Shown here in pieces: positions 50,157-53,049 of a stretch of 64,000 bases of DNA (the first letter of the stretch is position 1; every line of letters begins with the position of its first letter). This DNA is from Thermicanus aegyptius DSM 12793 (GTDB taxonomy: Bacteria; Bacillota; Bacilli; Thermicanales; Thermicanaceae), in contig NZ_KI783301.1 of the NCBI RefSeq assembly GCF_000510645.1, positions 750,086-814,085 on the forward strand, in the 5' to 3' direction. Made by a program: the position numbers and the translations under genes. A model generated the notes under the pieces. The model saw only the letters and a list, made by a program, of their open reading frames with translations, was not told the origin of the DNA and ran no database searches.

Positions 50157-50179
50157 ATGGGTATAGGAGGGTGAACGGG

Positions 50180-50422
50180 GTGGACAACTTAAAAAACTTC
50201 GGAAAGGCGGTTCCAACGCGAGAAGAGCTGGAGTTAAGAATAAGAGACTTGGAGGAGAAACTTCTGGCCCAAAGGGTGGGCAAGAGGGTGCTCCTTCAGC
50301 TTCTCGAGATGAATCGCAGGGAACAAGGGGAAATGCTCATGAAATTAGAAAGGGAAAATCGCCGTCTGCGCGAACGAGTCCGGGCACTGAACGGCATCTT
50401 AAGGGAACTGAAGAGGGAGTAG
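50180..50422 (+). CDS. Small predicted coiled-coil protein, 80 residues
   Basis: I do not recognise a named family. The 80-residue protein is almost entirely charged helix: heptad-like patterns run through ELELRIRDLEEKLL, then KRVLLQLLEM, and RENRRLRERVRALNGIL. GTG 50180 is chosen as start because AGGAGG lies 9 nt upstream, while GTG 50171 abuts that site. No signal peptide or membrane span. It stands alone between terminator and promoter, with a sigma-E-like sequence upstream, so a mother-cell sporulation role is possible but unproven. Confidence 0.7.
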   Translation: MDNLKNFGKAVPTREELELRIRDLEEKLLAQRVGKRVLLQLLEMNRREQGEMLMKLERENRRLRERVRALNGILRELKRE

Positions 50423-50521: not shown

Positions 50522-51094
50522 ATGCCTTTTCCCAAGATCACTGAGATGGGACATGCCCTGCTCCCATTCTTTATTTCTCAGGGAGATACCGTAGTCGATG
50601 CCACGTGTGGCAATGGAAAAGATACCCTCTACCTTGCCCGTTTAGCCGGACCGAAGGGGAAGGTTTATGCCTTCGATATCCAGGAAACGGCTTTACGAAA
50701 GACAAGAGAAAGGTTGGAAAAGGAGAGGGATCCGATCGCCTCCGTTCACTACATTTTGGATGATCATCGGAATATAGACGCCCATGTGAAGGAGACGCCC
50801 GCCGCCATCCTTTTTAATCTTGGGTATCTTCCAGGTGGAGACCATCGAATCACCACCCAAACTTCCTCCACCCTGATCGCCGTGGAGAAGAGCCTAACTC
50901 TCCTTAAACAGGGAGGACTTCTGCTCATCACTTCATATCCGGGTCATGAAGAAGGGAAAAAGGAAGCGGCGGCGCTGGCCCGTTATTTTTCATCGCTTTC
51001 TCGGGACAATTTTCGTATTTTGAAAATCGGTTTTCTTGAGAACCACGAAAACTCCCAAGCCCCCTATATTCTAGCCGTTGAAAAACGGTCTTGA
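50522..51094 (+). CDS. mnmM: SAM-dependent tRNA methyltransferase MnmM (YtqB family)
   Basis: This 190-residue class I methyltransferase belongs to the former rRNA_methylase family whose B. subtilis member YtqB (MnmM) methylates nm5s2U at tRNA position 34. The SAM-binding motif is VDATCGNGKDTLYLA, then VYAFDIQETAL, AAILFNLGYLPGGDH and SYPGHEEGKKE, all hallmark segments. AAGGAGA precedes the ATG. The function is by family. Confidence 0.88.
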   Translation: MPFPKITEMGHALLPFFISQGDTVVDATCGNGKDTLYLARLAGPKGKVYAFDIQETALRKTRERLEKERDPIASVHYILDDHRNIDAHVKETPAAILFNLGYLPGGDHRITTQTSSTLIAVEKSLTLLKQGGLLLITSYPGHEEGKKEAAALARYFSSLSRDNFRILKIGFLENHENSQAPYILAVEKRS

Positions 51095-51139
51095 CATATA
51101 ACAGTTCATGTAAGATTCAAAAAATAAAACAGACTACTA

Positions 51140-51168
51140 TTGTAATCTTTTCCTTTTGGTACTATACT
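51140..51168 (+). promoter_or_regulatory. Predicted promoter for pckA leader
   Basis: TTGTAA and TATACT are 17 nt apart. A second possible extended -10 (TGTTACAAT) lies at 51211-51219, without a good -35. Confidence 0.6.
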
Positions 51169-51209
51169 AAAAATAACGATACGGAAGTGTGAAGAGGCAA
51201 GGAGGTTTT

Positions 51210-51245
51210 ATGTTACAATGTGAAAAAAATCACAAACTGTCTTAA
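51210..51245 (+). CDS. Possible 11-codon leader peptide upstream of pckA
   Basis: ATG is preceded by AAGGAGG with 4-nt spacing and encodes MLQCEKNHKLS before a stop. It could be a leader peptide or chance. No codon run or terminator fold that would indicate classic attenuation was seen. Confidence 0.25.
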   Translation: MLQCEKNHKLS

Positions 51246-51262
51246 ATGAGAGATAGGAGTGG

Positions 51263-51427
51263 ATGACGCTGAAGGGAAAACGAGGGGGCGAGGGAGAAAG
51301 GCGACAGGAGCTAAACCGATTGTTGATGGGATACATTTCCAGACATCCGGCATTCATTCAAAAGGGAATGCTTGGGAAAGTCGGATGGAGAGTCCGTCCG
51401 GTGTTTGATCGAGGTTTTACCATGTGA
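51263..51427 (+). CDS. Possible small basic protein upstream of pckA, 54 residues
   Basis: This frame begins MTLKGKRGGEGERRQEL and ends DRGFTM. It is rich in Arg, Lys and Gly, with no cysteine and no membrane span. TAGGAG lies 3 nt before the ATG, which is short. It ends 41 nt before pckA. I recognise no family; it could be a real small protein or an open frame in the leader. Confidence 0.35.
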   Translation: MTLKGKRGGEGERRQELNRLLMGYISRHPAFIQKGMLGKVGWRVRPVFDRGFTM

Positions 51428-51468
51428 ACACGTGAAAAGACCAAACGAGCGAAATGAGGGTGAAGAGG

Positions 51469-53049
51469 ATGAGTCAGGTGATTCGCACTTCTTTGGAAGA
51501 AATCTTGGGAGGGGAGAAGGTGCACGTTCAGCTCTCCGTCCCCGAATTGGTGGAGCAAGCGATTAAAAACGGCGAGGGAAAACTTACGTCAACGGGAGCT
51601 TTTTCCGTATATACGGGGAAGTTTACGGGCCGTTCTCCCAAAGATAAGTATATCGTCGATGAGCCGTCCGTTCATGAACAGATTTCTTGGGGAGAAATAA
51701 ACCAACCCCTTTCGGTAGATAAGTTTAAAAAGCTCTATCAAGATGTGATCGATCATCTAAAAGGAAAGGAACTCTACGTTTTTGACGGTTTCGCGGGGGC
51801 TGATCCGGACTACCGGCTGCCGATCCGTGTGGTGAGTGAGCTTGCCTGGCATAATCTCTTTGGCCATCAACTCTTTATCCGGCCGACTGAAGATAAGAGG
51901 AAGACCCATGTGCCGGAATGGCATGTGATATATGCTTCGGGATTTAATGCCCGGCCTGCCGTGCATGGGACCCGATCGGAGACCTTCATCGTAGTAAGTT
52001 TTGAGGAAAAAGTAATCCTCATCGGTGGAACCCAATACGCCGGAGAGATGAAAAAATCGGTCTTTAGCGTCATGAATGCCCTTCTCCCCCAAAAAGGGAT
52101 TCTCTCCATGCACTGTTCCGCCAATGTGGGGAAGGAAGGGGATGTCGCCCTTTTCTTCGGACTATCCGGCACGGGAAAGACCACTCTCTCCGCAGATCCC
52201 AACCGAGCCCTCATTGGAGATGATGAGCATGGTTGGTCCGACACCGGCGTTTTTAATATCGAAGGGGGTTGCTACGCCAAGTGCATTCGCCTCTCCCCGG
52301 AGAAGGAACCGCAGATTTATCAGAGCATCCGTTTCGGAGCCGTCTTGGAGAACGTGACGATCAATCCGGAAACGCGGATTCCCGATTTTGACGATGATCG
52401 CATCACCGAAAATACCCGGGCTGCATACCCGATCGATCACATTCCCGGGGCGGTCATCCCGGGGGTTTATGCTAGCCATCCCCGCACCATTCTCTTCTTG
52501 ACCGCAGATGCCTTCGGGGTTCTTCCTCCGATTTCTAAGCTTACTCCGGAGCAGGCCATGTACCATTACCTTTCCGGCTATACCAGCAAACTGGCCGGGA
52601 CGGAACGAGGAGTAACCGAACCGGAAGCGACCTTTTCCTCCTGCTTCGGAGCGCCTTTCCTCCCCCTTTATGTGAGCACCTATGCCAAGATGTTAGGGGA
52701 GAAAATCCGGAAACATCACACCCGGGTTTATTTGGTGAATACAGGATGGAGCGGAGGCCCTTATGGGGTGGGGAAACGAATTAACCTGGCTTACACCCGG
52801 GCGATGGTCACCGCCGCCCTAAACGGAGAACTGGAAAAGGCCGCCTTTACCCCTCATCCCATCTTCGGACTTCTCGTCCCCGATCATTGCCCGGGAGTTC
52901 CTTCGGAAATCCTTGATCCGGCCAGAACATGGGCAGATAAAGGGGCTTACGAGGCGAAGGCAAAGGAATTATCCAAACGCTTTGACGAAAACTTCGCCCG
53001 CCTGCAAAAAGCGGACCCCTTTATCGCCGGTCTTTCGAAGAATTGGTAA
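51469..53049 (+). CDS. pckA: Phosphoenolpyruvate carboxykinase (ATP)
   Basis: PckA converts oxaloacetate to phosphoenolpyruvate in gluconeogenesis. The 526-residue protein shows [19 protein letters not shown] (core), MHCSANVG, the kinase-1a loop [11 protein letters not shown], the metal-binding GDDEHGWSD, and [11 protein letters not shown]. The family is the ATP-dependent bacterial/plant type. The ATG with GAGGGTGAAGAGG upstream is chosen over one five codons earlier. The long leader suggests extra regulation. Confidence 0.96.

Follow-up and report, generated by a model that had tools for sequence, protein, structure and literature searches.

Rex operators described in S. aureus and Streptomyces follow the pattern TTGTGAA-N4-TTCACAA. 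According to the passages of PMC2883068 drawn on here, confirmed Rex sites of S. aureus quite often deviate at positions 1 and 7, where changes reduce Rex binding and mostly result in sites of lower affinity, positions 4 and 5 being the most critical ones. The same passages name adhE as a Rex target in S. aureus, describe the hem repeat, similar to TGTGA-N6-TCACA, as not being bound by Rex at all, and report that ArcR binds a motif resembling Rex sites, the loss of ArcR causing no significant change in transcription of the tested genes (PMC2883068). For Streptomyces, the excerpts used of PMC5355995 place Rex binding downstream of transcription starts, i.e. from +108 to +135 at wblE and from -3 to +25 at cydA1. 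The word pckA did not come up in a search of two S. aureus Rex papers (PMC2883068 and PMC8593685), and among titles and passages of the Rex and pckA literature we found no statement on Rex control of pckA, which is no proof of such control being unpublished.

Here, we analysed the region ahead of pckA, encoding an ATP-dependent PEP carboxykinase, within a DNA stretch of 64 kb, referred to as the window (Table 1). The gene upstream on the same strand (50522-51094) is a putative rRNA-methylase-family gene, separated from pckA by a gap of 374 nt. Just upstream of this methylase gene, an 83-codon frame rich in charged residues is located at window positions 50171-50422. Between 50400 and 53400 the scan listed P1 as the only promoter-like site on the plus strand, and it listed no terminator-like site in the leader. 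The predicted -10 of P1, TATACT, lies about 300 nt ahead of pckA and is also part of the CcpN/-10 element of relatives, TGTGTTATACT; its degenerate counterpart GGTACTATACT is 296 nt away from codon 1 of the longer pckA frame and 311 nt from ATG 51469. From the inferred P1 start to ATG 51469 the leader comprises about 294 nt. In 47 of 64 regions of relatives the CcpN/-10 element lies 64-147 nt ahead of the first matched pckA residue, from which these distances were counted and which is up to about 33 nt away from the start codon; 17 of the 64 regions have no plus-strand CcpN/-10 element with a matrix score of at least 12 within 500 nt. L003 and L053 are one contig, and the matrix was trained on sites from 54 of these same 64 regions, so that training and comparison set overlap. 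The original prediction of an unusually long leader of about 290 nt stands on condition that P1 really is the promoter. An additional promoter, P2, may be formed by the extended -10 TGTTACAAT (TG-N-TACAAT) and a poor -35; with P2 in use, the leader would shorten to about 240 nt and no longer include the ATG of the 11-codon frame.

Table 1. Features of the pckA leader and their positions in the window (P1 and P2, predicted promoters).
Feature	Position	Strand	Basis or remark
Predicted promoter P1, TTGTAA-17-TATACT	51140-51168	+	promoter scan; inferred start close to 51175
GGTACTATACT, degenerate form of the CcpN operator that covers the -10 in relatives	51158-51168	+	9/11
AAGGAGG ahead of the 11-codon frame, Shine-Dalgarno-like	51200-51206	+	sequence
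TATGTTACAAT, CcpN-like half-site	51209-51219	+	9/11 compared to the consensus; also reads as extended -10 of P2
11-codon frame, MLQCEKNHKLS and stop	51210-51245	+	translation
ATGTGAAAAAAATCACAA, candidate Rex-type (or Crp/Fnr-type) operator, 18-mer	51218-51235	unstranded	pattern search
54-codon frame	51263-51427	+	without convincing relatives
pckA, ATP-dependent PEP carboxykinase	51454-53049	+	PF01293, E 3.1e-228
Likelier pckA start, ATG	51469		Shine-Dalgarno-like GAGGGTGAAGAGG ahead of it

Inside the 11-codon frame we identified a dyad which is not part of the earlier description of the leader and which overlaps the CcpN-like half-site, the latter sharing two bases with the Rex-type 18-mer. 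Its core, TGTGA-N6-TCACA (TGTGAAAAAAATCACA, 51219-51234), has two perfect arms, and the 18-mer ATGTGAAAAAAATCACAA differs from TTGTGAAW4TTCACAA by two mismatches at positions 1 and 7, a spacer consisting of A only and intact positions 4 and 5 bringing it in line with the Rex-operator consensus, in which few mismatches and these two positions count. It covers +44 to +61 relative to the inferred P1 start and lies over the -10/+1 of the possible P2. The window contains no other TGTGA-N6-TCACA with up to one mismatch and no other Rex-type 18-mer with up to two, and shuffling of 51095-51468 produced the exact dyad in 5 of 20,000 and a Rex-type site in 13 of 3000 sequences.

The genome encodes Rex (PF06971, 80 bits; NCBIfam, 289 bits at a cut-off of 126). 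Across the genome, the exact dyad occurs 12 times compared to 0 for the reversed pattern, the dyad with at most one mismatch 82 times compared to 28, and the Rex pattern with at most two mismatches 37 times compared to 12. With equal base frequencies, 3.66 Mb should by our own arithmetic contain about 3.5 copies of a 10-base dyad, and part of the 12 exact ones may therefore be due to chance. Nine of the 12 precede genes, as judged from the neighbouring reading frames: exact dyads stand before pckA itself, before the iron-sulfur repair gene ric and the gene for a hydrogenase small subunit (both reaching their family cut-offs), three times before adhE (best family match over a 480-residue part; 781 bits, cut-off 951), and before DoxX-like, S9 peptidase-like and YheC/D-like genes, which were named by eye. 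Two further exact dyads are found at a cell-wall-hydrolase-like gene and one apparently within a nuo gene. Sites similar to the one at pckA are present at redox genes of the same genome, i.e. at adhE (three), the hydrogenase small subunit gene and an etfB-like gene (named by eye). Several examined members of the 37 Rex-pattern sites fall inside genes, and none of the 37 is near rex itself. As separate observations, the three Rex-type dyads of adhE are each one mismatch off the consensus and lie within 260 nt upstream of the gene (L185:3235-3488; C1:3145234-3145487), and the S9-peptidase-like gene is an unexpected target with three upstream dyads showing 2, 2 and 3 mismatches to the Rex pattern (L184:1517-1777).

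The pckA leader probably holds a Rex-type site overlapping a worn-down CcpN site. Our analysis suggests a model, to which we assign a probability of roughly one half, according to which Rex represses pckA until NADH rises, CcpN control is weakened and the small reading frames are by-products of the leader. Transcription of pckA would begin upstream of the operator or at it; with NAD+ dominating, Rex would occupy the operator and block RNA polymerase. For transcription from P1 it would form a roadblock at +44 to +61, and at P2 it would cover the -10/+1 itself. As NADH increases, at little oxygen or during fermentation, Rex would leave and pckA would be switched on, as would adhE and the hydrogenase, where sites of this kind are present too. 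The usual CcpN control of pckA would be reduced to the imperfect sites GGTACTATACT and TATGTTACAAT, the second of which overlaps the Rex-type operator, and both small frames would be by-products of a long leader. These are known kinds of control in a new case and no new mechanism.

The main rival, which we consider rather unlikely, reads the dyad as the site of a Crp/Fnr-family regulator that represses or activates pckA. Two ArcR/Crp-like regulators of this family are encoded above cut-off (L043 and L044), and the one at L043 contains SRETMSR, resembling a CRP-family helix and presumably occupying the position of the DNA-reading helix. The perfect TGTGA-N6-TCACA suits such a regulator, the right arm ATCACA of the 18-mer fits Crp/Fnr proteins too, and a TGTGAT-type dyad is carried by ric, a typical target of Crp/Fnr-family regulators. 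The set of sites at adhE and the A-only spacer fit Rex, and it is because of the adhE, DoxX-like and hydrogenase sites that we infer Rex as the binder and prefer it over the initial Fnr/Crp reading of the dyad. In S. aureus, the similarity of the ArcR motif to Rex sites speaks for this rival, and the lack of a significant effect of ArcR loss on the tested genes speaks against it (PMC2883068). Class II activation of a downstream promoter by Fnr/Crp was rejected, being unlikely because P1 is upstream of the box, and neither inspection by eye nor the promoter scan showed a plus-strand -10 about 32 nt beyond the dyad centre. The positions of the other sites with respect to predicted promoters are mixed, several lying upstream of their best predicted promoters (etfB-like gene -59, DoxX-like gene -58, ric -34), and do not decide between Rex and Crp/Fnr.

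At the pckA genes of relatives the Rex-type site is not conserved. We scanned 110 pckA upstream regions, among them that of the window (53,885 bases in total; L003 and L053 belong to one contig), using reversed and scrambled patterns as controls, and found a Rex-type site with at most two mismatches in two regions, the window and genome G038, both controls yielding 0; 108 of the 110 regions are without a site at this threshold. At up to three mismatches the Rex pattern gave 9 matches, the controls giving 2 and 4. No pckA match was found in 5 further genomes of the same order. G038 is a distant genome that encodes Rex, and the site before its pckA, CTGTGAAACCTTTCACAA (position 1361 of the reversed locus L006), shares one base with an opposite-strand CcpN match of 11/11, TGTGACATACT, and precedes the CcpN/-10 element of G038 by about 70 nt. 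Elsewhere in G038, TGTGAT-type dyads are found near hybrid-cluster-protein-like and globin-like genes (L152, L154 and L156; assigned from the reading frames only), which suggests an Fnr-type regulon distinct from the Rex-type pckA site.

The two overlaps allow for a further reading, for which we see a small chance, namely that CcpN half-site and Rex dyad form a composite operator in which shared bases make the binding of the two repressors exclusive, resulting in an integration of sugar and NADH signals. As the same Rex/CcpN pairing precedes pckA in the distant G038, such a module would have arisen or been kept twice. Within the genome under study, 17 of the 37 Rex-like sites were checked, and two of these have a CcpN matrix score of at least 5 within 30 nt, the pckA site (6.9) and a site at L172 (15.5). 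In the latter the dyad itself contains the CcpN-like match, and the site falls in an open frame.

The sequence TATGTTACAAT had been proposed to resemble in part the operator of CcpN. Compared to TRTGHYATAYW, which we take to be the CcpN consensus, a 9/11 match is indeed present, but by consensus alone it is at chance level, matches of at least 9/11 numbering 208 on both strands of the 64 kb. Judged by the matrix, TATGTTACAAT ranks 14th of 127,980 window positions, yet it scores 6.9, and GGTACTATACT 5.3, while the sites of the relatives used for training have a median of 18.5; with 9/11 as the best match and scores far under those of the relatives, no proper CcpN operator is apparent at pckA. 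When the region was shuffled 3000 times, 435 of the sequences contained a CcpN-like site as good as TATGTTACAAT, and 7 a group of weak CcpN-like sites as good as the three at pckA, the latter test being post hoc.

An ordinary CcpN-controlled pckA promoter, with glucose repression mediated by the two imperfect sites and the dyad being incidental, is in our view improbable. This explanation draws on CcpN being encoded (330 bits at a cut-off of 260) beside PDRP1-type and PPDK genes, on 47 of 64 relatives having a strong CcpN/-10 element, on the three grouped weak sites and on a gapB-like gene bearing AATGTTATACT over its -10 (matrix score 14.1) and the opposed TATTACATACT 33 nt further on (7.4). 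It has to contend with pckA sites of 5.3 and 6.9 as compared to 14.1 for the best gapB-like site and the median of 18.5, with a spacing of 51 nt at pckA instead of the 33 nt at gapB, and with the frequency at which shuffles contain a site equal to the better pckA one. The second GAPDH gene was taken as gapB since the other one adjoins pgk; its pair of CcpN-like sites is located at L143:968-1011 of the genome under study. The genes for CcpN, the PDRP1-type regulator and the PPDK-like protein are arranged in a row (L052:811-3768). The notion of a special control region at pckA with CcpN nearby is partly supported by the encoded repressor, by one good and one weaker site at the gapB-like gene and by the cluster of three weak sites at pckA. 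CcpN control of pckA may act here in a weakened form.

Two small reading frames had been reported for the leader, and both are present, the 11-codon frame with a strong ribosome site ahead of it and the 54-codon frame. The 18-mer operator takes up 18 of the 36 bases of the 11-codon frame, stop codon included, and the core dyad 16, a warning that small frames in leaders, even when preceded by a good ribosome site, may partly reflect a DNA operator. This frame, which is too short for a homology test, stops 223 nt short of ATG 51469. GGAGG-N3-9-ATG occurs 32 times on the plus and 7 times on the minus strand of the window (39 in total), and 18 and 7 of these sites, respectively (25 in total), open frames of less than 60 codons, so that short frames with a good ribosome site are not rare in the window. 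By our own arithmetic fewer than 0.1 such frames with a Shine-Dalgarno sequence are expected per 294 nt, and the 11-codon frame may thus be translated. A search for the 54-codon frame in 397 other genomes of the class gave matches in 6 of them at E values of 0.014-0.095, none of which is convincing, so that conservation of the frame is not supported, and it matched no Pfam family. A frame as long turns up in 184 of 2000 shuffles, and its codon score is ambiguous as to coding, being higher than in 87% of the 149 spurious frames compared and in 13% of the 54-codon pieces of real genes. It is probably not a gene, and both small frames are probably incidental; a leader peptide or small protein as the likeliest reading was rejected on the relatives, Pfam and shuffle results of the 54-codon frame.

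Regarding RNA structure, the leader fold reached a z of -2.8 over 326 nt, where one shuffle in 100 did equally well, and of -2.2 over 294 nt. Of 120 stretches drawn at random from the window, 10 attained this latter value, 30 shuffles being used for each of them compared to 100 for the leader. Rfam gave no match at gathering score in the window, the best sub-threshold match (SpF61, E 0.28) being taken as chance, and a riboswitch or other known RNA in the leader was rejected as no Rfam family fits. Control by a leader peptide or by RNA structure, in which pckA expression is tuned by translating either small frame or by the folded leader, had been put forward in the original prediction and now appears very improbable: the good Shine-Dalgarno sequence, unexpected within 294 nt, the fold and the existence of regulatory small upstream frames such as rbfL of S. 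aureus (described in the excerpts used of PMC13009471) are outweighed by the lack of convincing relatives of the 54-codon frame, the shuffles yielding equal length, equally folding random stretches, the missing Rfam family and terminator-like site, and the absence of any single-amino-acid run from both frames.

PEP carboxykinase is a meeting point of glycolysis, gluconeogenesis and succinate-forming fermentation. If true, a redox operator at pckA would place this enzyme under the control of NADH and would show that CcpN control can be weakened or joined to another signal.

As compared to known systems, the leader shares with rbfL-type regulatory upstream frames a short frame with a strong Shine-Dalgarno sequence and differs from them in the large distance of the 11-codon frame to ATG 51469, no special codons being seen. 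Like the CcpN operators of Bacillales gapB and pckA, the locus has half-sites near -10 elements, TATGTTACAAT and GGTACTATACT, but each of these shows two mismatches, one overlaps another operator and their spacing differs from that at the gapB-like gene. The exact core dyad is as in ArcR/Crp/Fnr-type sites (TGTGA-N6-TCACA), whereas its position with respect to the predicted promoter is unsuited to activation. Different from known Rex operators, the site is predicted from sequence and its target is pckA; it agrees with the operators of S. aureus and Streptomyces in the dyad, in the A/T spacer, in having its mismatches where confirmed sites deviate, in the presence of such sites at adhE and in a predicted position past a start, as known from wblE and cydA1.
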